Below, piece after piece: positions 6,692 to 19,455 of a stretch of 64,000 bases of DNA; positions within the stretch are counted from its first letter, which is position 1; each line of letters begins with the position of its first letter. The translations under genes and the position numbers were made by a program. The stretch is taken from positions 992,001-1,056,000 of the forward strand of contig NC_012669.1 of assembly GCF_000023105.1 (NCBI RefSeq), given 5' to 3'. The notes beneath the pieces are model-generated. The model searched no databases. It had not been told where the DNA came from and saw nothing but the letters and a program-made list of their open reading frames with translations. This stretch comes from Beutenbergia cavernae DSM 12333 (lineage in GTDB: Bacteria > Actinomycetota > Actinomycetes > Actinomycetales > Beutenbergiaceae).

Positions 6692-9600
6692 TCAGCTGAT
6701 CGACCACGAGCCGCGCTGGCACGTGATGCCCTCGTAGGCGACGTCGTAGACGCTCTCGCGCACCTCGCCGTCGACGGTCGCCGTCCCCGTCACCGTGACG
6801 GTGCCCGGGGCGATCGACCGCTGGAACGTCGTGACGACGTCGTAGACGGACCGGTCCGGACGCACCCGCGGGTACGTCACGTCCAGGAACGGCGTGTCGA
6901 TGCTCACCCGCGCCGTGACCTCGTCCGTGTTCGTGACCTTCACGAGCACGTACGCGAAGCCGGCGAGGCAGCCCGGCCGCGTCGTCGTCTCCAGGCTCAC
7001 GCCCGCGGGCGGCTCCGGCTCCGTCACCTGCTCGACCGGGATGACCTGGAACTGGGCGCCGACGGCGTTGTGCAGGTTGAGCAGGAGCACCGAGTCGTCG
7101 GTGGGCGTGACGTCGGACGCCGCCGCCGGGAACGGCGGTGCGTCCGGGTTGCCCGGACGGCTCACCGTGATCCCGGTGTCGGGCTGCGCCACGTACAGCG
7201 GTGACGTGCCGTCCCCGAACTCCAGCGTGTCGGCCGCGTCGTACGACAGGCCCTCGATCGTGTCCAGGACGAGGCCCTGGTCCTCGCTCGGCGGCTCCGC
7301 GTACCAGGAGAGGCCGCTCACGGAGTAGGAGAACGCGACCTCGTCCGCGGCGACCTGCTCGGGCGTGAACCCGAGCGCCGCCAGCTCCACCGGCAGGTAC
7401 GCGACCGACGTGTCGAACGTGTTGGTGTCCGTGTCCCCGAGCACGTTGTTCAGGAACTCGAGGCCGGTGTTGGTGCCGGCCGCGTCGAACACCGCGACGA
7501 TCGTGATGTCGTGCGGGTCGCCCACGGAGTCCGTGAGCTTCTGCACCTCGACGGTGTACGGGCCGGCGTTGTCGCCCGTGTCGACCTCCACGGCGAACGA
7601 CGTGGCGCGACCGAGCGTCGTCCACGGCGCGTGCGTCGCGATGCCGAAGCCGACGTAGCCGTGGTCGACGCCACCCGAGTCGGTGAACGTAAACGGAGCC
7701 GTGCCGACGGCCGCGAGGTCCGCCCCGGCCGCTGACGGGTTCTGCAGCTCGTCCGCCGGGATCTGCTCCGACGTCGCAGCCAGCTCGAGCGGGACGACCG
7801 CCGAGGTGTACCCGTCCTGGGCGAGGCCACGACCCGTGAGCGGCAGCGTCGTCGTCGTGGCGGCCTCGTCACCGAAGACCACGTCACCGCCGGCGATGTC
7901 CGCCACCGGCTTCACGGCCGCCGAGACCGAGACCCGCAGCGGGCCCTCGACGTTCGGCGCACCGGTCAGCTCGAGCCACCCGGTCGCCGTCGAGAGGAAC
8001 TCCCGCGGGAGCCCGTACGTGGCGTCGACGGCGCTCACCGTCGGGTCGATGTCCTTCGCGAGCGCTGCCGGGTCGGCCACGGTGAGCGTGACGTCGACGG
8101 ACGCGGTGCCGCCGGCCGGCACGCTCACCTCGGACGCGGAGAGCGTGTACTCGACGCCGGCCACCGGCGACTGCGGCCGGTAGGAGGCACCGAGCGTCAC
8201 GTCGGCCGTGCCGTGGTTGGCGACCTCGACGGTGCGGGTGAGGGACACGGCGTCCGCGCCGACCTCGACCACGCCGAAGTTCGCCGAGACGCCGAGCGGG
8301 TTCTCCGCGTCGTACGCGAGCACGGTGTCGAGCGTGGCCTGCAGGGCGTCGACACGGCCCGTGCCGACCCGCTGCGGGCCGAACGGGGTCTCGCCCAGCC
8401 GCACGTCGTGGTTGGCGGTGTTGATGACAGCCGTCTTGACCTGCAGGGCGCTCCAGTCGGGGTGCGCCTGCACGGTCAGGGCAGCGATGCCGGCGACGTG
8501 CGGCGACGCCATCGACGTCCCCGACTTCACCGACGCGCCGTTGCCCGTGCCGACGGCGACCGACGAGATCGACGTGCCTGGTGCGGCCACGTCGGGCTTG
8601 ACGATGCCGCGGGAGCCGTGGACGCCGCGCGAGGACGACGCGTTGAGCGTGTCCGCGACGGACGGCGCAGGCGCCGTGACCGACAGGCTCGGGTCGAACC
8701 GGACGCTCAGCGTCTCCGACAGGATGTCGACGACGCCGGTGGCCGGGTCGAACGCGAACAGCTCGTCCGTCGCCGGGCCGGTCAGCTGGATGCCCGGGAT
8801 GACCGCGTTGCCGGCGATCCCGGCCTCGAAGGCCTCGTCGGTGCTGGTCAGCACGACGCCCGCGGCGCCCGCGTTGGACGCGTTGGTGAAGCGGGCGGCC
8901 GAGCCGCACGGCAGGGCGACGGAGTTGTCCCACGCCAGGGTGACGACCTTGCCGGCCACGCGCGCGGCGTCGTCGGCGGTGAACGGCTCACAGCCCGAGT
9001 TGTACGGCAGCGTGCCCGGGGTCAGCGTGACGACCTCGATCGGGTCCGGCGGGTAGGTGCCCGTGAAGTTCACCGAGTACTGGCCCGGGAGGACGAGCGG
9101 CTCGGTCGCGCCGTCCACGTACGCCTCGACGCCCTCGAACAGGAACGTGTTGCCCAGGGAGTTCGCGACGGCGAGGGAGCCGTTCGCGTTCCCGGGCGAA
9201 CCGCCGACGTCGTACACGTCGCCCGAGTTGCCGGCGGACGTGACGACGACGATGCCCGCCGCGACGAGCGCGTCGATGAGCAGGTTCTCGGGGTCGTCCA
9301 CCAGCGAGAACTCCGAGCCGACGGAGAGGTTGACGACGTCGACCTCCGGCGCGTCCGGCGCGAGCAGCCAGTCGAGCGCGGCGCCGACGTACGCCGTCGA
9401 CCCTGCGCAGCCGAAGACCTTGAGCGCGACGAGGTCCGCCTCCGGTGCCGAGCCGGGGCCCACCTGGAACGTGTTCAGCTCGTCGTCGGTGAGGGCCGCG
9501 TAGTCGCCGGCGAACGTCTCGCCCTCGGCGTCGACGCCGTAGCCGGCCGCGGTGCCCGCGACGTGCGAGCCGTGCCCGCTGCCCGGCGGCACACCCTCCG

Positions 9601-10396
9601 GGGGCGTGCACAGAGCCGCGCTCTCGTCGATCGGGTTGGAGTCCGGCACCGCCGGGTCGTCCGAGTACCCGCCGTTGTAGGCGTGGCCCACGAAGTCCCA
9701 GCCGTCCGTGATCTTGCCCTGCGGCCACGCGACGTCGTCGTCGAAGCCGTCCGCGGACGTCGGGTACGTGAGGGCGGAGTCGCCGAACGACGCATGCGTG
9801 TAGTCGATGCCGGTGTCGATGACGGCGATCGTCGTGTCCTCGCCGGTCACGCCCGCGAACTCCCACGAGTCGGCGGCGCCGGTGAAGATGTCGGTGCCCG
9901 AGTTCGACGCCGGAGTCTTCGGGACGATCGGAAGGATCGCGACGACGTCGTCGCGGGCGGCCAGATCGCGCAACGCCTCGGCGTCGGCACGCACGGCGAC
10001 GCCGGCCACGCCGTTCGTCGTCGTGTAGAGGACGTCGGCGTCGCCGAGGGCGGCGACGACGGTGTCGGCGTCCGCCTCGACCTGCGCAGCCGCGTCCGCA
10101 GCCACGTCGTCCTGGGCCTGCGCGGATCTCGCGCCGGAGGCGTCGAGCGCCTCGAGGACGGGTGTGCTCGCCAGCTGGACGAACACCTCGGTCGGGCCCT
10201 CGAGCCCGACGAGCCCAGAGACATCAACGCCGCCACCACGTCCGGTGGCGGCGGCGAAGGAATCGGCGGAGGGAAGGTCGGCCGCTGTGCCGGCCGGTTC
10301 CGCATGGGCTGCTGTGACGAAGCCTGTGGTCGCAAGCGCACCGGTGAGCGCGCCGGCCATCAGGGCTCGCGTGACGCGCGAGCGGACGTGGGACAT
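6692..10396 (-). CDS. Secreted subtilisin-like serine protease (S8) with PA and C-terminal beta-sandwich domains
   Basis: A large exported protease (1234 aa). Order: signal peptide ending near AHA-EPA; inhibitor I9-like propeptide (about residues 55-160, with VFVQLASTPVLEAL and DDVVAILPIV); catalytic domain with Asp194 (VIDTGID), His275 (GHGSHVAGT) and Ser628 (SGTSMASPH). A PA domain (about 480-590, GAAGVVLTST) is inserted before the serine, and long Fn3-like beta domains follow to the end. This architecture is typical of actinobacterial lactocepin-like S8 proteases that digest extracellular protein. The ATG at 10396 has a GGGAG site just upstream and begins the signal peptide. The gene has its own terminator and is divergent from the helicase-like gene. 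Confidence 0.95.
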   Translation of the reverse strand: MSHVRSRVTRALMAGALTGALATTGFVTAAHAEPAGTAADLPSADSFAAATGRGGGVDVSGLVGLEGPTEVFVQLASTPVLEALDASGARSAQAQDDVAADAAAQVEADADTVVAALGDADVLYTTTNGVAGVAVRADAEALRDLAARDDVVAILPIVPKTPASNSGTDIFTGAADSWEFAGVTGEDTTIAVIDTGIDYTHASFGDSALTYPTSADGFDDDVAWPQGKITDGWDFVGHAYNGGYSDDPAVPDSNPIDESAALCTPPEGVPPGSGHGSHVAGTAAGYGVDAEGETFAGDYAALTDDELNTFQVGPGSAPEADLVALKVFGCAGSTAYVGAALDWLLAPDAPEVDVVNLSVGSEFSLVDDPENLLIDALVAAGIVVVTSAGNSGDVYDVGGSPGNANGSLAVANSLGNTFLFEGVEAYVDGATEPLVLPGQYSVNFTGTYPPDPIEVVTLTPGTLPYNSGCEPFTADDAARVAGKVVTLAWDNSVALPCGSAARFTNASNAGAAGVVLTSTDEAFEAGIAGNAVIPGIQLTGPATDELFAFDPATGVVDILSETLSVRFDPSLSVTAPAPSVADTLNASSSRGVHGSRGIVKPDVAAPGTSISSVAVGTGNGASVKSGTSMASPHVAGIAALTVQAHPDWSALQVKTAVINTANHDVRLGETPFGPQRVGTGRVDALQATLDTVLAYDAENPLGVSANFGVVEVGADAVSLTRTVEVANHGTADVTLGASYRPQSPVAGVEYTLSASEVSVPAGGTASVDVTLTVADPAALAKDIDPTVSAVDATYGLPREFLSTATGWLELTGAPNVEGPLRVSVSAAVKPVADIAGGDVVFGDEAATTTTLPLTGRGLAQDGYTSAVVPLELAATSEQIPADELQNPSAAGADLAAVGTAPFTFTDSGGVDHGYVGFGIATHAPWTTLGRATSFAVEVDTGDNAGPYTVEVQKLTDSVGDPHDITIVAVFDAAGTNTGLEFLNNVLGDTDTNTFDTSVAYLPVELAALGFTPEQVAADEVAFSYSVSGLSWYAEPPSEDQGLVLDTIEGLSYDAADTLEFGDGTSPLYVAQPDTGITVSRPGNPDAPPFPAAASDVTPTDDSVLLLNLHNAVGAQFQVIPVEQVTEPEPPAGVSLETTTRPGCLAGFAYVLVKVTNTDEVTARVSIDTPFLDVTYPRVRPDRSVYDVVTTFQRSIAPGTVTVTGTATVDGEVRESVYDVAYEGITCQRGSWSIS

Positions 10397-10664
10397 GGTG
10401 GACTCCCGTGTTCTCCATGGGCGGTGAGGAGGGTTCACCGCACGGCAACCCTCGCAAACTAGTGCTTGCGGGCCGTTGACAACACCCCCCACCGAGGCCG
10501 AGACCCGGAAGTTGTGTGCTCAACCGGTCGAGGTGCATACTGGATTTCGACGATGCGCGCCGCCTGCCCCCTGCGCGGTGCGCATCGTCTTTTTCGTGCC
10601 CGCACGCCCGCGTCCGACCCGTGCGAGCCGGGCGCGTCTGCCCGACGATGGAGCGCAGGATCGT

Positions 10665-10676
10665 TAGCGTGGCAGG
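10665..10676 (+). promoter_or_regulatory. -10 box TAGCGT placing transcription at the start codon (leaderless)
   Basis: TAGCGT (10665-10670) is followed by 6 bases and then GTG at 10677, with no Shine-Dalgarno sequence. Confidence 0.55.
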
Positions 10677-13600
10677 GTGAGTGCTGCCATCCACGCCGGT
10701 CCGGGCGGGACAACGGCGCACGAGGAGGTTCCGACGTCGATGACGGGTGAGGCGGGCGAACCCACCGAGCCGGGTGCCGGCCGGGACCACGAGGCCGAGG
10801 CGGCCACGCGAGCGGCGGCGGTCTCGGACGCCGTGGCGCGCTGGCGCGAGGCGCTGACCGCCCTCGGTGGGGACAGTGCACTGGCCGACATCGACGCCCT
10901 GGGCGACGCCGGCCTCGACCTGTCCGCCGCCCACCCCGGCGGCATCGCGCAGCTGTTCGCGGGCCGCCCGACCCGGCTGTCCAACCTCGTCCGCGAGCCG
11001 GGTGCGCTGGGGACCGCCCGCCGTCGGGCGCGTCTCGTGCTGGCCCGGTCCGACGAGCTGGCGCAGCGTTACGGACTGGCCGCCACCTCCGTCGCGCTCG
11101 GCGTGGCGACGTGGACGCCGGCGGACCCGGAAGGTCGGGCGGCGTCGGAGGGCGAGGGCGAGCTCGCCGCCGCAGGGTCGGAGCCCTGGCGGGCGCCGGT
11201 GCTGCTGCGGCCCGTCCACCTCTCGGTGCCTGCGCACGGCACCGACGCCGAGGTGGAGCTGGCGCTGTCGCCCCGCATCGAGATCAACCCGGTGCTCGCG
11301 CGGGCGCTCGGTGGCGGCGCCGGCCGGCTCGAGCGGCTCGTCGTCGAGCGGACGCAGCGCGGCGCCCTCGACCTGCGGGCGCTGCTCGCCGAGGTCGACG
11401 AGATCCTCGCGACGGCACTTCCCGGAGTCCGCGTCGACGAGCGGGTGGTGCTCGGCTCGTTCGCCCACCCGGGGCAGCTCCTCGCGGAGGACCTGGACGC
11501 GGAGCGGCTCGCCGGGCACGACGTCGTCGCGGCGCTCGCGGGCGACGACGAGGCGGCCGCGGCACTCGAGTCGGCGCTCCCGCCCGCCGCCGACGGCGAC
11601 CGTGATCCCGCCCAGGAACGGGGCGTCGGTGACCTCGACGCCGGCCAGCGTCGGGTGCTCGACGCCGTGGCGATGGGTGGGCACCTGTTCGTGGACGCGC
11701 CGCCGGGCGCCGACGTCGTCGGCACCATCACGGCGATCATCGCCGACGCCGCCGCGTCCGGGCGGTCCGTGCTGCACGTGCCGGGCACGCGTCGGGCCGG
11801 TGCGGCGCTCGCCGAGACCGTCGCCGCCGTCGGCATCGGCGAGCTCGTGCTCGACCTCACGTCCGACGCCGACCGCTCCCGCGTGGCCGCGGAGGCCTTC
11901 GGCGCACGGATGGCGGCACCGGTCCCCGAGGTGGACGACGACGCCGTCGCCGCGCTGCGTCTCGAGCTGGGGCAGGTGCACCGGAGCCTCGTCGCCCACG
12001 TGCGCGCCCTGCACGAGGTCCGGAGCAGGTGGGGCGTCTCCGCCTACGACGCGCTCCAAGCGCTCGCCGCGCTGACGGCCCAGCGACCGGGGCCACGCAC
12101 CGAGGTGCGGCTCGACGCCGCGATCCTCGAACGACTCGACGCGCCGGCCCGGAAGCAGGCCGGCGAGGAGCTCGCGCGAGCCGGTGCGCTCGGCGCGTTC
12201 CAGCTGCGGAGGGCCGACAGCCCCTGGTACGGCGTCCGTCTCGCCAGCGCCGAGGAGGCCACCCGCGCCGTCGAGACGGTCAACCGTCTCGCGGCCCGCA
12301 CGCTGCCCGGTCTGAGGCGCCAGATCGCGGCGGCCGCCGCGCAGACGGGGCTCGCTCCGGCGTCCAGCCTCGCGCAGTGGCGCGAGCAGCTGACGATGCT
12401 CGAGGGTGTGCGGCGCGCGCTCGACGTGTTCCAGCCGATGGTCTTCGAACGTTCCGCTGCTGACCTCGTCGCGGCGACAGCCCCACGGGCGGAGCGGGCG
12501 CAGCACGGTGCGCCGCTGCCCTGGCGCACGCGCCGCCGCCTGCGCCGCCAGGCGAAGGACCTGCTGCGACCGGGGCGGCACGTCACCGACCTGCACGCAG
12601 AGCTCGTGCACGTCCAGGCGCAGCGGGACGTCTGGCGCCTGCACTGCCCCGCGGGCGGATGGCCGCGGCTGCCGGAGTCGCTCGACGCGCTGGAGACGGC
12701 CACGCAGGACGTGAGCGACGCCGTCGCGTCGGTCGAGGAGGTCCTCGCGCCCACGCTGCCCGCGGGAGACGGGGCGACCTCGCTCGTCACCCTGCCCCTC
12801 GCCGGGCTGGAGGACCACCTCCTCGCGCTCGCGGCCGACGAGTCGGTCGCCCGCGCCCTGCCCGAGCGGACGGCCGCGCTCGCCCGCCTCATCGACGTCG
12901 GACTCGGTGACCTCGTCGACGACCTGGCGGACCGCCGGGTGCCGACGTCGTTGGTGGGTGCCGAGCTCGACCTCGCGTGGTGGGCGAGCGTGCTCGACGT
13001 CGTGCTCGCCTCCGACTCCGCGCTGGCGAATGCCGGTGGCGAGGACTTCCTCGCCCTCACCGACCGCTGGCGTGCGCTCGACCGGGGCCAGGTCGCGAGC
13101 CTGGTCGGCCCGGTCCGCCGTGCCACCGTGCGGCACCTGCGGGGCGTCATGCGCGAGCACGAGGAGCAGGCGCAGGGTCTGTACGCGCTGGCCCGGGAGG
13201 CTCGCCGCGGGAGCGGTGACACGTTCGACCTGCGGGAGATGGCGCGCGTGTTCGCCCCGGTGGCCGGGGCCGTCGTGCCGTGCTGGAGCGTGCCGCCGAT
13301 GCTCGTGCCGCAGGTGCTCGAGCCGGGTGCGCGCGTCGATCTGCTCGTGCTCGACAACGTGCAGAACCTGCCCACCGAACAGGCCGTCGCGGCCATCGGC
13401 CGGGCCCGTCAGGTCGTCGTGCTGGGCGACTCCCGGCGTGCCGGTGGCGGCGTCGTCGACGCCCTCGCCCCGCTGCTGCCGCGGCTCACGCTGCCCACCG
13501 ACCGGGGCGAGGAGGACGAGCACCTGACGGCGTTCCTGGTCCGCCACGGCTACGCCGAGGTGCTCGTCCCGGTCCCCGCACCGCCGGGGCCGAGCCGGAT

Positions 13601-14978
13601 CCGGCTCGACCTCGTCGACGGCCGCGGCCTCGCCGCCCCGGGCGCTGACGCCGTCGAGAGCGTGGCCGAGGAGGTCGCACGGGTGGTCGACGTGGTCGTG
13701 GACCACGCGCTCACGCGCCCGGAGGAGTCCCTCGCCGTCGTCGCCCTCAACGCCCGCCACGCCGATCGCGTCCGCGAGGCGGTCGCCGGCACCGTGGCCC
13801 ACAGTCCTGCGGTGGCCGAGTTCTTCGACGCCGCCCGGCCCGAGCCGTTCACCGTGGTGGACGTGGAGGCGGCGTCCGGGCTGCGCCGCGACGCCGTCGT
13901 GCTCACGCTCGGGTTCGGCAAGACGCCGCACGGGAGGGTGCTGCACCGGTTCGGTGCCGTGAGCGGCCCGCGTGGCGCGTCGCTGCTCGTGGAGGCGATC
14001 GCCGCGAGCCGCAGCAGGCTCGTCGTCGTCAGCTGCATCGCGCCGGACGAGTTCGACCGCGGGCGCCTGCGCTCCGAGGGTCCGCTGCTGCTCCACGACC
14101 TGCTCGAGTTCGCCGCGCTGGACGGCGCGTTGCCCCCGTCCACCGACGACGCGCCCCCCGACCCCCTGCTGGTCGACCTGGCCGAGCGGCTCTGGCGGAT
14201 GGGGCTCACGGTCGTGCCGCAGTACGGACCGGCGGGCGGGGTCCGCGTCCCGCTCGCGATCGGCCACCCGGAGCTTCCGGGGCGGCTGCTGCTCGCCGTC
14301 CTCACCGACGACGCGGAGTACGTGGCCTCGCCGAGCCTGCGCACCCGGGACAGACACCGCATCGAGCGGCTCGAGCGTCGCGGCTGGACGGTGCGGATGC
14401 TCCCGTCGACCGCCGTGTTCATGGACCCGCAGGGTGAGGCTCAACGCATCTGCGACCTGGTCACCGAGCTGGTCCGGTCCCGCCGCACGACCGGTTCCGT
14501 GCACGTTCCGGTCGTCGGGCCGCCGGAGCGGCTCGACGACGAGGAAGGCCCCGACGAGGACGTGCCCGACGTCGCCGACCCCGCCCAGACCGGGACGTCG
14601 GCGGCGCCCGCCCGGCCGGACCTCGAGGCCGGCCTGCCGATCGGCGCCTACACCGACGACCAGCTCGACGAGCTGCTCCGGTGGCTCGACGAGGGTGAGC
14701 CACGCGAGGACGAGGACCTGCTCGCCGCCGTGCGCACCGAGCTCGGCATCGCCCGCCGCGGTGGGCGGGTGGACGCCGTGCTCGGAGCAGCGCTCGCGCG
14801 CTTGCGCACGGGCGAGCGCCGCCGTCCGACGACGCCCGCGGCTCCTGCGACGCCGGCATCCACGGAGCCGCCGGTCATCCCGGACCGCGCCTGGGAGGAC
14901 GTCGACCGGGCTTGGGGAGACGACGACGCGGACGACGACGACCGGTTGCGCCGCGAGCGCCCACCGCACTGGGGCTGA
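10677..14978 (+). CDS. Giant superfamily-1 helicase/nuclease homologue with degenerate catalytic motifs (predicted pseudoenzyme)
   Basis: A 1433-residue protein built like the DUF4011/AAA helicases fused to a C-terminal Vsr-like nuclease, but each catalytic motif is altered. Walker A, normally GPPGTGKT, reads APPGADVV (341-348), without the Lys. Walker B reads LLVLDNVQ (889-896), so Asp893 is followed by Asn, not Glu. Motif III GDxxQ is GDSRRA (917-922). The late SF1 motif, usually LNVAITRAR, is LVEAIAASRS. The nuclease segment GVRVPLAI (about 1188-1195) has Pro1192 at the usual Asp position, and LAVLTDD (1206-1212) has Leu at the usual Glu. The frame is intact and long, so this is not simple decay. 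The GTG start is leaderless-like; an ATG at 10740 behind GAGGAGG is an alternative. It stands alone and is divergent from the protease. The role is unknown, perhaps scaffold or regulator. Confidence 0.8.
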   Translation: MSAAIHAGPGGTTAHEEVPTSMTGEAGEPTEPGAGRDHEAEAATRAAAVSDAVARWREALTALGGDSALADIDALGDAGLDLSAAHPGGIAQLFAGRPTRLSNLVREPGALGTARRRARLVLARSDELAQRYGLAATSVALGVATWTPADPEGRAASEGEGELAAAGSEPWRAPVLLRPVHLSVPAHGTDAEVELALSPRIEINPVLARALGGGAGRLERLVVERTQRGALDLRALLAEVDEILATALPGVRVDERVVLGSFAHPGQLLAEDLDAERLAGHDVVAALAGDDEAAAALESALPPAADGDRDPAQERGVGDLDAGQRRVLDAVAMGGHLFVDAPPGADVVGTITAIIADAAASGRSVLHVPGTRRAGAALAETVAAVGIGELVLDLTSDADRSRVAAEAFGARMAAPVPEVDDDAVAALRLELGQVHRSLVAHVRALHEVRSRWGVSAYDALQALAALTAQRPGPRTEVRLDAAILERLDAPARKQAGEELARAGALGAFQLRRADSPWYGVRLASAEEATRAVETVNRLAARTLPGLRRQIAAAAAQTGLAPASSLAQWREQLTMLEGVRRALDVFQPMVFERSAADLVAATAPRAERAQHGAPLPWRTRRRLRRQAKDLLRPGRHVTDLHAELVHVQAQRDVWRLHCPAGGWPRLPESLDALETATQDVSDAVASVEEVLAPTLPAGDGATSLVTLPLAGLEDHLLALAADESVARALPERTAALARLIDVGLGDLVDDLADRRVPTSLVGAELDLAWWASVLDVVLASDSALANAGGEDFLALTDRWRALDRGQVASLVGPVRRATVRHLRGVMREHEEQAQGLYALAREARRGSGDTFDLREMARVFAPVAGAVVPCWSVPPMLVPQVLEPGARVDLLVLDNVQNLPTEQAVAAIGRARQVVVLGDSRRAGGGVVDALAPLLPRLTLPTDRGEEDEHLTAFLVRHGYAEVLVPVPAPPGPSRIRLDLVDGRGLAAPGADAVESVAEEVARVVDVVVDHALTRPEESLAVVALNARHADRVREAVAGTVAHSPAVAEFFDAARPEPFTVVDVEAASGLRRDAVVLTLGFGKTPHGRVLHRFGAVSGPRGASLLVEAIAASRSRLVVVSCIAPDEFDRGRLRSEGPLLLHDLLEFAALDGALPPSTDDAPPDPLLVDLAERLWRMGLTVVPQYGPAGGVRVPLAIGHPELPGRLLLAVLTDDAEYVASPSLRTRDRHRIERLERRGWTVRMLPSTAVFMDPQGEAQRICDLVTELVRSRRTTGSVHVPVVGPPERLDDEEGPDEDVPDVADPAQTGTSAAPARPDLEAGLPIGAYTDDQLDELLRWLDEGEPREDEDLLAAVRTELGIARRGGRVDAVLGAALARLRTGERRRPTTPAAPATPASTEPPVIPDRAWEDVDRAWGDDDADDDDRLRRERPPHWG

Positions 14979-15005: not shown

Positions 15006-15575
15006 TCAGACCGAGCCGGGCCCGCTGGGCGGCTGCGGCGGGTACGACGGTGCGGACGGTGCTGCGCCGCCGCCACCGGCCGGACCGCCGGCCGGAGCCT
15101 GGCGCGCGAGCAGGTCGCGGATCTCGGTGAGCAGCTGGATGTCCTCCGCGGGGATCGCCGGCTCCGGTTCCTGCCCGGTAGCCCGGCGGCGCGCCAGGGC
15201 GTTGAGCGGCGCGACGACGAGGAAGTAGATCGCTGCCGCGACGAGCACGAAGTTGACGAGAGCGGTCAGCACCATGCCGACCTTCATCTCGGACGGCGGG
15301 ATGCCCGCGGCGGGATCACCCTCGTTGAGCGTCCACACCCAGATGTTGTCGAGGTTGGGCTGGCCGAAGATGCCGCCGATGAGCGGGTTGAGGACACCCT
15401 CGACCACCGCCGTGATGACGGCGGTGAACGCCGCGCCGATGACGATCCCGACCGCCAGCTCGACGGCATTCCCGCGGGCGATGAACTCCTTGAAGCCGCT
15501 GAGCATGCCGCCGGCCTTCGCGGCGGCGGCCCTTCGTTGCGCCGCGGCTCCTGCGGCCGGTCCTTGCTGCGACAT
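15006..15575 (-). CDS. mscL: Large-conductance mechanosensitive channel MscL
   Basis: A membrane channel that opens under osmotic down-shock to release solutes (189 aa). The family signature FKEFIARGNAVELAVGIVIGAAF forms the N-terminal amphipathic helix and first membrane span. The second span (VLTALVNFVLVAAAIYFLVV) is followed by the charged helix PAEDIQLLTEIRDLL. The proline/glycine-rich tail (last 30 residues or so) makes it longer than the E. coli protein (136 aa), as is common in actinobacteria. A GAGGAGA site lies 7 bases before the ATG. It follows the SAF gene by 21 bases, probably in one transcript. Confidence 0.96.
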   Translation of the reverse strand: MSQQGPAAGAAAQRRAAAAKAGGMLSGFKEFIARGNAVELAVGIVIGAAFTAVITAVVEGVLNPLIGGIFGQPNLDNIWVWTLNEGDPAAGIPPSEMKVGMVLTALVNFVLVAAAIYFLVVAPLNALARRRATGQEPEPAIPAEDIQLLTEIRDLLARQAPAGGPAGGGGAAPSAPSYPPQPPSGPGSV

Positions 15576-15596: not shown

Positions 15597-16277
15597 TCAG
15601 GGCGAGGGCACGAGGACCACCGTGAGCGTGCCGCGGGCGCTCGCCTCGACGACGAGCGTAGCCACGTCGGGGCGAACCGCGACCAGGAGCAGAGGTGCGT
15701 CGGGGGCCGACGACGTGAGTCCGCCGATGCCGCCGCCCGCCTCGCCATCCACTCGCGCGAGCACGACGGCGTCCGTCGCCAGGACGTGGGCTCCCGCCTC
15801 CTGGTCGCCGGCGGCGACCAGGTCGACGGTCGCGCCCGGCTCGAGCACCGACGTCAGGAGGGGGTCGGCGAACCGCACGGGCACCACCGTCGTGCCTCGC
15901 GGCGCGCCGTCGGCGAGTCCGGGACCGAGCACCATGCCCGGCCCGAGCGGGTATCCGGCCGGGAGGGCGTGCGCCAGCTGCCGACCGACGACGTCGTCGG
16001 CCGCGTCCAGCGCGTCGGGCGGGACGGCGTCGGCGGGCAGCGCCACGACCCGGACGTCGGCCGGGACGATCTCCTGTGCGGCGGCGATGTCGTGCGCGGC
16101 GACCAGGACGTCGACGCTCGGGGGATCGGGTGGTCGCAGCGTCGCGAGCGCCATCGTCGCAGCCACGGCGAGGGCGAGCGCCGCCACGACGTGCCGAGCG
16201 CGCCAGAGCGCGACGCGCACATGCCGTGACGTCCGGGACGGCGCCCGGGGAGGACTGTCGCTGGGGAGGCGTGCCAT
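15597..16277 (-). CDS. SAF-domain membrane-anchored protein (CpaB/RcpC-like)
   Basis: A 226-residue protein with a basic N-terminus, one membrane span (about residues 27-47, HVVAALALAVAATMALATL) and an extracytoplasmic SAF domain (VLVAAHDIAAAQEIVPADVRVVALP) followed by a CpaB-like beta domain (GTTVVPVRF, ATVDLVAAGD). CpaB proteins belong to Flp pilus assembly, but actinobacterial copies next to mscL and fmdB occur without pilus genes, as here, and have no known role. The ATG at 16277 follows a TAGCGT box by 7 bases and has no ribosome site, so a leaderless start is preferred over the upstream ATG at 16310. Confidence 0.8.
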   Translation of the reverse strand: MARLPSDSPPRAPSRTSRHVRVALWRARHVVAALALAVAATMALATLRPPDPPSVDVLVAAHDIAAAQEIVPADVRVVALPADAVPPDALDAADDVVGRQLAHALPAGYPLGPGMVLGPGLADGAPRGTTVVPVRFADPLLTSVLEPGATVDLVAAGDQEAGAHVLATDAVVLARVDGEAGGGIGGLTSSAPDAPLLLVAVRPDVATLVVEASARGTLTVVLVPSP

Positions 16278-16284
16278 CCCACGG

Positions 16285-16290
16285 ACGCTA
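16285..16290 (-). promoter_or_regulatory. -10 box TAGCGT of the SAF gene (leaderless)
   Basis: Minus-strand TAGCGT is followed by 7 bases and then ATG at 16277; no Shine-Dalgarno sequence is present. Confidence 0.55.
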
Positions 16291-16344
16291 GGTCCGGCGC
16301 CCGCGACCACGGGCCCGCCCCTGGGGACGCACGGGCCGAGGCGG

Positions 16345-16711: not shown

Positions 16712-16847
16712 GGATCCTCCTCGGCGACGGATGCGGATGACGCCGCCGCTAGCACTTGTCACTACCGAGTGCCAACTCTACTGCCCTTCTCGTCGGCCCC
16801 GATCCTGCCCGCTGGCGCCGCCTCCGGAGTCCTCGCTCGGGGACGGA

Positions 16848-16853
16848 TACGCT
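16848..16853 (+). promoter_or_regulatory. -10 box TACGCT of the acylase gene (leaderless)
   Basis: TACGCT is followed by 7 bases and then GTG at 16861, without a ribosome-binding site. Confidence 0.55.
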
Positions 16854-16860
16854 CGAGCCC

Positions 16861-19455
16861 GTGTCAGCCTCGCTCGTCCGCCGCGTCGTCACCGCCGTGG
16901 CCGTCGTCCTCGTCGTGGTGCTCGCGGCGTCGACCGTCACAGCCGCGATCGTCATCCGCCGGCCCCTGCCGACCACGTCCGGCGAGACCCGGATCCCGGG
17001 TCTCGGCAACGACGTCGACGTGGTCCGCGACGATCTCGGCATCCCGCAGATCTACGCCGACGACCCGCACGACCTGTTCTTCGCGCAGGGCTATGTCCAC
17101 GCGCAGGACCGCTTCTTCGAGATGGACTATCGGCGCCACGTCACCTCCGGCCGGGTCGCGGAGCTGGTGGGCGACCAGGAGGCGGCGATCCAGGCCGACT
17201 CCGTGATCCGCACGTTCGGGTGGCGGCGGGTCGCCGAGCAGGAGTGGGACCTGCTGAGTCAGCAGACCCGCGACCACCTCACGGCGTACGCCGACGGCGT
17301 GAACGCCTATCTCGACCGGCGGACGCCCAGCGCCGCGGCCATCGAGTACACGGTGCTCGGCACGCAGGTCAGCGTCGAGGCGATCGAGCCCTGGGACCCC
17401 ATCGACTCCGTCGCGTGGCTCAAGGCGATGGCCTGGGACCTGCGGGGGAACTACGACGACGAGCTGCTGCGCGCGGCCGCGTACGGCAGCACCCAGGACA
17501 CCTCGCTCGTCGGCGACCTCTTCCCGCCGTACCCCGCCGAGACGAACCCGCCCATCATCACGGACGGGACGCCGTCGTCGCCGCCCCCCGACCCCGGCAC
17601 GCCCGACGTCGACGACGCCTCGCTGCCGGCGGGCAGCGAGGACGCGCTCGCGGGGGTCGTCGAGGCGCTCGGGGCAGTCCCGCACCTGCTCGGCGAGGGC
17701 GACGGCATCGGCTCGAACTCGTGGGTCGTCGGCGGCGAGCACACCGCCTCGGGGGATCCCCTCCTCGCGAACGACCCCCACCTCGGGATCACGGCGCCGG
17801 GCCTGTGGTACCAGGCCGGCCTCCACTGCCGCGACGTCGGCGACGAGTGCCCGTTCGACGTCGCCGGGTACACGTTCGCGGGGTTCCCGGGCGTGATCAT
17901 CGGGCACAACGACGCACTGGCCTGGGGCCTCACGAACCTCGGCGCCGACGTCACCGACTTCTACCTCGAACGACTCTTCACCGACGGGACGTACCTGCGG
18001 GACGGTGAGCGCGTCCCCGTGGTCGAACGCACCGAGACCATCGAGGTCAACGGGGCCGACCCGATCCAGCTGACGGTGCGGTCGACGGAGCACGGGCCGC
18101 TCGTCGACGAAGTGCTGCCCGATCTCGAGCTCGCCACCGAGGCGCCGCTGCCGGAGGGGTCGCCGCGGCCGGCCCGGGAGGGGTACGGCGTCGCGCTCGC
18201 GTGGACGGCGCTGGAGCCCGGCCGCTCGGCCGACGCGGTGTTCGCGATGAACCTGGCGCAGGACGCGGACGACGTCGCCGCGGCGGCCGCGCTCTTCGAG
18301 GTTCCCTCACAGAACATCGTGTTCGCCACGACGGACGGCACGATCGGCTACCAGGCGCCGGGCCGGATCCCGGTGCGCGCCGTCGTGTCCGGGGGCACGC
18401 CGTCGAACGGGACCTGGCCGCAGCCGGGCTGGGACTCCCGGTACGACTGGCAGGGCACGGTGCCGGCCGAGGAGATGCCGGCCGAGACCGACCCCGAGGA
18501 GGGCTTCATCGTCGCGGCGAACCAGGCCGTGACCGAGCCCGGTGTCGGTCCGTTCCTCACGAACGACTGGGACTACGGGTTCCGGTCCGCGCGGATCCGC
18601 GCGCTGCTGCAGGCGGAGATCGACGCCGGGCGCCCGATCACGGCCGAGACGATGTCCCGGATCCAGAACGACACGCTCGACCCTGCCGCCGACGTCCTCC
18701 TGCCCTCGCTGCTCGACCTCGAGGTCGACGACTTCACCGGCGAGGCGAGCGCGCTGCTCGCCGACTGGGACCAGCGCACCGACCCCGACTCGGCGGGGGC
18801 CGTGCTCTTCGCCACCGTGTGGGCGAACGTGCTCCGCCGCACGTTCGCCGACCAGCTCCCGGAGGCCGTCGCGCCGTCGGGCGGTGCGCAGTGGATCGAG
18901 GTCGTCCGCCGCCTCCTCGAGGAGCCCGAGAACCTGTGGTGGGACGACGCCACGACCGTCGCGCTCGTGGAGACGAGGGACGAGGTGCTGCACGACGCGC
19001 TGGTCGACGCCCGCCGGCAGCTGACGGCGGCGCTCGGCGCCGACCCGACCCGGTGGCGGTGGGGGAACCTGCACCGGGCCGCGCCGGAGCACGCGGTGCT
19101 CGGGGGCGACGGCGTGCCCGGCCCGGTGCGCCGTCTCATGAACCCGAGCGCGATCGAGGTCGGCGGCGGGTCGTCGATCGTCGACGCGACGGGCTGGGAT
19201 GCGACGCAGTGGGGCGAGGCGGCGCCGGACTTCACCGTGACGGCGATCCCGTCGATGCGGATGGTGGTCGACCTGGGCGACCTCGACGCGTCCACCTGGG
19301 TGAACTTCACCGGGAACTCCGGGCACCCGGCGTCCCCGCACTACACCGACCAGCTGCGGGCGTGGGCCGAGGGTGACACGTACCCGTGGCCGTTCACGCG
19401 CGACGCCGTGGCCGCCGCCGAGGAGGAGACGCTGCGGCTGCTCGCCCCCGGCTGA
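16861..19455 (+). CDS. Penicillin acylase-family Ntn-hydrolase (peptidase S45)
   Basis: An exported or membrane-anchored amidohydrolase precursor (864 aa) that would self-cleave into two chains. It has an N-terminal hydrophobic anchor (about residues 3-35), the alpha-chain motif DDLGIPQIYADDPHDLFFAQG with QDRFFEMDYRRH, a Pro/Asp-rich linker, and then GIGSNSW, where Ser285 would become the new N-terminal nucleophile of the beta chain. ANDPHLG and GFPGVIIGHND follow, as in family members. Substrates of the family include beta-lactam side chains and acyl-homoserine lactones; which applies here is unknown. The GTG at 16861 fits the leaderless promoter better than an upstream ATG at 16756, which would start before that box. 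Confidence 0.9.
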   Translation: MSASLVRRVVTAVAVVLVVVLAASTVTAAIVIRRPLPTTSGETRIPGLGNDVDVVRDDLGIPQIYADDPHDLFFAQGYVHAQDRFFEMDYRRHVTSGRVAELVGDQEAAIQADSVIRTFGWRRVAEQEWDLLSQQTRDHLTAYADGVNAYLDRRTPSAAAIEYTVLGTQVSVEAIEPWDPIDSVAWLKAMAWDLRGNYDDELLRAAAYGSTQDTSLVGDLFPPYPAETNPPIITDGTPSSPPPDPGTPDVDDASLPAGSEDALAGVVEALGAVPHLLGEGDGIGSNSWVVGGEHTASGDPLLANDPHLGITAPGLWYQAGLHCRDVGDECPFDVAGYTFAGFPGVIIGHNDALAWGLTNLGADVTDFYLERLFTDGTYLRDGERVPVVERTETIEVNGADPIQLTVRSTEHGPLVDEVLPDLELATEAPLPEGSPRPAREGYGVALAWTALEPGRSADAVFAMNLAQDADDVAAAAALFEVPSQNIVFATTDGTIGYQAPGRIPVRAVVSGGTPSNGTWPQPGWDSRYDWQGTVPAEEMPAETDPEEGFIVAANQAVTEPGVGPFLTNDWDYGFRSARIRALLQAEIDAGRPITAETMSRIQNDTLDPAADVLLPSLLDLEVDDFTGEASALLADWDQRTDPDSAGAVLFATVWANVLRRTFADQLPEAVAPSGGAQWIEVVRRLLEEPENLWWDDATTVALVETRDEVLHDALVDARRQLTAALGADPTRWRWGNLHRAAPEHAVLGGDGVPGPVRRLMNPSAIEVGGGSSIVDATGWDATQWGEAAPDFTVTAIPSMRMVVDLGDLDASTWVNFTGNSGHPASPHYTDQLRAWAEGDTYPWPFTRDAVAAAEEETLRLLAPG

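Follow-up and report, generated by a model that had tools for sequence, protein, structure and literature searches.

The gene at positions 10677-14978 (plus strand) of the 64,000-nt window of the Beutenbergia cavernae DSM 12333 genome analysed here encodes a 1433-residue protein in which an Upf1-like superfamily-1 (SF1) helicase is joined to an MTES_1575 (Vsr-like) nuclease. Its catalytic inactivity and its maintenance by selection are well supported by comparison with orthologues. With a probability of roughly 50%, the protein is a domesticated, non-catalytic nucleic-acid-binding scaffold or sensor that is partnered with a micro-protein ending in PPHW. The finding is larger than the one in an initial annotation of this sequence, which described a single protein: a helicase-nuclease that is apparently dead across most of a bacterial order is paired with an undescribed, class-wide micro-protein. 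In the following, f-numbers are family labels and L-numbers are locus labels of the sequences of relatives.

Gene architecture and predicted fold

The gene is translated as a single uninterrupted frame, and the guanine-plus-cytosine (GC) content at the three codon positions (0.84/0.53/0.93) identifies the plus strand as the coding strand, so that the full reading frame described in the initial annotation stands. The assignment of the GTG at 10677 as the start codon is uncertain, given the lack of conservation in residues 1-43 and the presence of an ATG at 10740. A frame of 1581 codons that lies antisense to the whole gene (window 10224-14969, minus strand) resembles a GC-rich shadow open reading frame. 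Pfam recognized only the MTES_1575 nuclease domain in the protein (PF18741, 51.4 bits, E=1.2e-13), above the gathering cut-off of 38.2, and in the orthologues L052, L098 and L100 the Pfam order is DUF4011, AAA_11, AAA_12 and MTES_1575. The N-terminal DUF4011-like domain contains a strongly conserved stretch at residues 85-107 (AHPSGxAQLxAGRPTRLSxLxRE).

The structure of residues 44-1243 was predicted by AlphaFold2 (AF2) with a mean predicted local distance difference test (pLDDT) value of 93.1 and a predicted template modelling (pTM) score of 0.83. The best matches of a Foldseek comparison with the PDB were Aquarius, Upf1, senataxin, IGHMBP2 and Dna2, with top E-values of about 1e-8 to 1e-5. 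The whole-chain TM-scores are low (0.15-0.29, query-normalised), for which the large insert and the extra domains are a likely reason. The predicted fold is an intact SF1B tandem RecA fold of the Upf1-like type. A sequence search of the PDB with the protein gave nothing relevant, only weak matches such as hydrogenases.

Catalytic and retained residues

The Walker A lysine, the Walker B glutamate, the motif III glutamine, the motif VI arginine and both nuclease residues, aspartate and glutamate, are absent from the protein. The replacements sit in the motif columns of the intact orthologues L052, L098 and L100, which carry GPPGTGKSQT, DEAS, GDERQLP, TRAR/TRSR/SRAK and the nuclease aspartate and glutamate; all motif remnants listed in the initial annotation, as well as Pro1192 and Leu1209, were thereby confirmed in position and column. 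The protein consequently lacks the signature of active SF1 helicases (Walker A GxxxxGK[ST], Walker B DE, motif III Q and motif VI R) as well as that of active Vsr-like/MTES_1575 nucleases, in which the aspartate of IDLAV and the glutamate of AVE.DG are expected where Pro1192 and Leu1209 are found. A scan of the whole 1433-residue chain detected no canonical Walker A, DEAS/DEAQ or TRAR motif elsewhere; the presence of such motifs would have overturned the original claim. The sole GKT of the chain (1081) falls in motif V, where active proteins carry the same GxGKT. The statement that every catalytic motif has been lost holds for the key catalytic residues and is slightly too strong for the motifs as such, since D893 of Walker B, G917-D918 of motif III, the second arginine of motif VI (R1112), motif V, and D1211 and R1224 of the nuclease remain.

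Among orthologues of the protein's own group, the nuclease aspartate is proline in 74/74 and the glutamate is leucine in 68/74; these appear to be fixed new residues and not drift. The Walker A lysine is missing in 139 of 149 aligned orthologues, and its position is occupied by Gln in f6, Gly in f19, Arg in f38, mostly Ala in f7 and mostly Val in the window's group, within which V, T, S, I, A and others occur. Motif V, a point of contact with nucleic acid in SF1 helicases, is retained while motif VI and the P-loop lysine drift, with a mean top-residue frequency of 0.79 in the window's group versus 0.64 overall. Moreover, active and inactive orthologues have 107 conserved positions in common, and many residues of the insert at residues ~375-865 are conserved in both kinds alike. 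The above-average conservation of motif V and the 107 common positions favour a retained binding of nucleic acid or of a partner. Judged from these replacements, the protein probably neither binds nor hydrolyses ATP and performs no cleavage.

Order and number of the losses

The initial annotation assumed that all sites had been lost together, which was not borne out. The Walker A lysine, Walker B DE and the nuclease D..E pair are all present in 10 of the 149 aligned orthologues (families f5, f17 and f45), the nuclease pair only is kept in 11, neither site is complete in 128, and no orthologue has the ATPase site without the nuclease site. Since 11 orthologues keep the nuclease without the ATPase and none shows the reverse, the loss was stepwise, with the ATPase lost before the nuclease, and a simultaneous loss of all sites was ruled out by the same 11 sequences. 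On a tree that was rooted with active DUF4011 paralogues, built with the motif columns removed and scored for the P-loop state by GKS, the lysine was lost at least four times, a count that depends on quick trees with Shimodaira-Hasegawa-like approximate likelihood-ratio test (SH-aLRT) support in which some forks are open. One of these losses falls on the base of a clade with 31 rows, which comprises most of the order and has an SH-aLRT support of 100. The lysine of L135 in the P-loop column does not represent a P-loop (LDTPPGSEKFSTL). Separate, catalytically intact DUF4011 helicase paralogues of ~2000 aa occur in some genomes of the order (L061-L066), with DUF3320 where tested (L061); in many genomes, including that of B. 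cavernae, an active paralogue was not found.

Distribution and selection

An orthologue was present in 39/39 genomes of the first search. Order-wide it was found in 243 of 248 genomes, in 231 of the 233 genomes of good quality and in 85 of 86 genera, mostly as one copy per genome. In two genomes of 0.8-0.9 Mb the frame is intact (1205 and 1221 aa) and lacks the catalytic residues. Elsewhere in the class full-length matches are rare except in family f38; the families f45 and f25 contribute a single case each. One orthologue, L058 (G022:C2:1184000-1190500), lies in two adjacent frames of 754 and 847 aa, which may be a natural split or a frameshift.

Pairwise ratios of non-synonymous to synonymous substitution rates (dN/dS, Nei-Gojobori) ranged from 0.069 to 0.149 for 12 pairs with dead motifs; the f20 and f38 pairs gave 0.175 and 0.217, and the three active pairs 0.133-0.260. 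The values of the 14 inactive pairs (0.069-0.217) are thus no higher than those of the active ones. Selection and not decay is indicated because the gene is near-universal and intact in genomes of 0.8-0.9 Mb, dN/dS is low and the losses are common to relatives. It is therefore strongly supported by these comparisons that the gene is a conserved core gene under purifying selection, as had been proposed when the loss of the sites was first described: the orthologues with the same losses under purifying selection that had been named beforehand as a check were found, and the orthologues are intact frames in almost all of the order and not pseudogenes. A sequencing artefact or an oddity of a single genome was ruled out by the same losses in many relatives.

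The PPHW micro-protein

The last ~35 residues of the protein (14871-14975) are a fused micro-protein ending in PPHW that is foreign to the helicase family itself. Most relatives encode it in a separate gene of ~50-125 codons that follows directly downstream of the helicase gene, frequently with a 4-nt overlap between the helicase stop and the micro-protein start. It is recognisable by an acidic stretch around G-W-G-[DE] and by the C-terminal D-x-R-L-x-R-[ED]-x-P-P-H-W; the ending is PPHW or PPHH across the family, and some members have a basic patch at the N-terminus. No Pfam or NCBIfam match was obtained for it. The micro-protein was found in 99 of 146 sampled genomes of the class Actinomycetes, usually in a single copy (the fused one in B. 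cavernae) and often convergent with mscL. Fusion to the helicase is seen in some members of f1, f6, f15 and f17 and in every f10 sampled, and the fused and separate states changed at least nine times on the tree.

In several families without the helicase the micro-protein gene adjoins mscL, as observed in L206-L208 (family f37), L213-L216, L219, L220 and L224, where no helicase is nearby. Because of this arrangement in f37 and others, it is suggested that the neighbourhood of mscL and the micro-protein predates the arrival of the helicase. In f6, f10 and f12 mscL is no longer adjacent and the micro-protein is still paired with the helicase.

Proposed role and alternative explanations

We propose that the protein descends from a full-length SF1B helicase of the Upf1-like type that carried a Vsr-like nuclease at its C-terminus, as is found in accessory anti-phage genes, and the gene of which would have become fixed in the chromosome beside the micro-protein gene and mscL in an ancestor of the order. 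In the simplest history, the helicase gene would have entered an old micro-protein/mscL locus, followed by co-translation and repeated fusion. The ATPase would then have been lost, and in the window's lineage the nuclease too, while the fold and the residues facing nucleic acid stayed under selection. The present protein would use the former helicase track to bind single-stranded DNA (ssDNA) or RNA, and it would present, or be regulated by, the micro-protein that is co-translated with or fused to it. Both the domestication and a physical partnership of helicase and micro-protein are inferred. In its extended form, the scheme starts from the domestication of a defence-type helicase-nuclease in an actinobacterial ancestor, after which the gene joined the core genome of the order and catalysis was lost stepwise (in the case of the ATPase on at least four occasions); today the protein would be a non-catalytic nucleic-acid scaffold in a module with a class-wide micro-protein that the searched family libraries do not describe; this form is slightly more tentative than the proposed role itself. 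Several observations weigh against the scaffold reading. Nucleic-acid binding by the protein is suggested by conservation only. In f20 the micro-protein is encoded elsewhere in the genome, away from the helicase, and in much of the class it is present without the helicase, so that the partnership is not obligatory for the micro-protein. In an AF2 prediction of the fused homologue L145, furthermore, the PPHW tail has a pLDDT of ~58-60 and its docking on the helicase is not confidently placed.

The overlap of stop and start codons, the repeated fusion and the old neighbourhood with mscL would also agree with a protein that mainly carries or regulates the micro-protein (its stability, its localisation or an MscL-related function) and whose helicase fold binds protein only; this is somewhat unlikely, given that the protein retains motif V and further segments facing nucleic acid in its relatives and that many actinobacteria have homologues of the micro-protein without such a helicase. 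A continued anti-phage function of the DUF4011/Hhe/ProA/PDC-S37 type, in which the protein would serve without catalysis as a sensor of phage products or a decoy for them, is unlikely. The nearest described families are indeed anti-phage, namely ProA (NF058533, 304.4 bits) and Hhe (NF042953, 178.9 bits) in NCBIfam and PDC-S37 (327 bits) and Hhe (148 bits) in PADLOC; however, the two NCBIfam scores are far under the curated equivalog cut-offs of 1500 and 2000, respectively, and many genomes, that of the window among them, show no active paralogue that could be regulated. The defence sensor or decoy considered in the initial annotation is likewise not supported by the distribution, since the gene occurs in nearly all genomes of the order at a syntenic locus that is fixed and mostly lies beside mscL (downstream in 83/115 loci), is neither patchy, mobile nor confined to defence islands, and evolves like a core gene. 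Enzymatic activity kept via unorthodox residues, for example ATP binding without the P-loop lysine or a relocated nuclease site, is quite doubtful: the predicted fold is intact and D893, G917-D918, R1112, D1211 and R1224 remain, but the chain holds no alternative P-loop or DEAS/DEAQ, the lysine position drifts in the window's group, the nuclease aspartate and glutamate have become proline and leucine, and lineages with progressively weaker motifs resemble the erosion of one site and not its replacement. The degradation of every catalytic motif could finally be read as that of a slowly decaying relic, which is scarcely credible in view of dN/dS values far under 1, frames that are intact nearly order-wide including genomes of 0.8 Mb, and the high AF2 confidence; decay to a pseudogene was ruled out by these results.

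Features of the locus

The coordinates of the features are compiled in Table 1. Directly upstream of the helicase gene and divergent from it lies a large subtilase gene (Peptidase_S8 with PA domain; window 6692-10492, minus strand), and the upstream neighbour appears variable between loci.

Table 1. Features of the helicase-nuclease gene and its surroundings (window positions unless a locus label is given)
Feature	Position	Strand	Basis or remark
Whole gene: predicted inactive SF1 helicase, predicted inactive MTES_1575 nuclease and fused PPHW micro-protein	10677..14978	+	1433 aa, start uncertain
N-terminal DUF4011-like domain, ~residues 44-205	10806..11292	+	Pfam DUF4011 at the equivalent place in L052, L098 and L100; conservation; AF2
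Walker A remnant APPGADVV, residues 341-348, Lys to Val347	11697..11720	+	orthologue alignment
Large helical insert between motifs I and II, ~residues 375-865	11799..13270	+	AF2; conservation in active and inactive orthologues
Walker B remnant DNVQ, residues 893-896, Glu to Asn	13353..13364	+	orthologue alignment
Motif III remnant GDSRRA, residues 917-922, Gln lost	13425..13442	+	orthologue alignment
Motif V region ASGLRRDAVVLTLGFGKTPHGRVLHRFG, residues 1066-1093, kept in inactive orthologues	13872..13955	+	top-residue frequency
Motif VI remnant AASRS, residues 1109-1113	14001..14015	+	orthologue alignment
MTES_1575 restriction endonuclease (REase) domain, residues 1168-1260, Asp to Pro1192, Glu to Leu1209	14178..14456	+	Pfam PF18741, E=1.2e-13
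Fused micro-protein tail PVIPDRAWEDVDRAWGDDDADDDDRLRRERPPHWG, sole copy in the genome	14871..14975	+	comparison with separate genes of relatives
mscL, conserved downstream neighbour	15006..15575	-	Pfam MscL; downstream in 83/115 helicase loci
SAF-domain protein, recurrent neighbour	15597..16310	-	domain search and neighbourhood comparison
Penicillin acylase family gene, recurrent neighbour	16756..19455	+	neighbourhood comparison
Separate micro-protein genes, examples	L050:1109-1342(-); L053:5185-5418; L027:9883-10119; also in L052

Implications

If the proposed role is true, the majority of a large bacterial order has a helicase descendant of 1200-1600 residues that works without ATP or cleavage. 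Its retention even in genomes of 0.8 Mb would then strongly suggest a core function that has so far gone unrecognised. The natural series of active, ATPase-dead and doubly dead proteins offers material for studying the change from an enzyme to a scaffold. Moreover, an uncharacterised micro-protein has been exposed across the Actinomycetes. Caution is also advised with defence profiles: PDC-S37, for example, recognises this catalytically dead core gene (327 bits), and counts of defence systems in actinobacteria may therefore be inflated.

Comparison with known systems

A search of the mainly open-access literature for DUF4011 helicase-nucleases, PDC-S37, actinobacterial pseudoenzyme helicases, signature helicases of the Micrococcales and small proteins adjacent to mscL returned nothing on this gene. 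With the anti-phage helicase-nucleases of the DUF4011/Hhe/ProA/PDC-S37 type the protein shares the order of DUF4011, SF1 helicase and MTES_1575 REase, and the active orthologue L052 clearly matches these families and domains. The window protein differs from them in being shorter (1433 aa versus profiles of 1550-1911 positions), in the loss of its catalytic residues and in that no DUF3320 was detected in it; its gene, moreover, is core and syntenic and is either coupled with that of the micro-protein or fused to it. In Microbacterium testaceum, the protein MTES_1575, the namesake of PF18741, combines an SF1 helicase with a Vsr-type REase; it differs in having HEPN, transglutaminase and winged helix-turn-helix (wHTH) domains as well and is listed with an active HEPN domain (PMC3710099). 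Utp25 of the eukaryotic small-subunit (SSU) processome is a conserved helicase homologue that is likewise termed a pseudohelicase; it differs in being a eukaryotic ribosome-assembly factor, and the relevant passages of the source mention no nuclease domain (PMC9539457).

A parallel in the way of working may be AddB and RecC, the inactivated SF1 domains of which scan ssDNA for Chi (PMC4824097). An SF1 fold that lacks most catalytic motifs and is under selection is found in these proteins as well as in the window protein. RecC also has a dead nuclease-like part. AddB and RecC are UvrD-like SF1A proteins and subunits of DNA-end resection complexes with an active partner, whereas the window protein is predicted to be Upf1-like SF1B, combines a DUF4011 N-terminus with an MTES_1575 domain of the Vsr-like type, and has no known active partner. 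Because the fold class differs and no active partner is known, the relation is best described as one of analogy: the protein may work like AddB and RecC and would not be counted as a member of their family.

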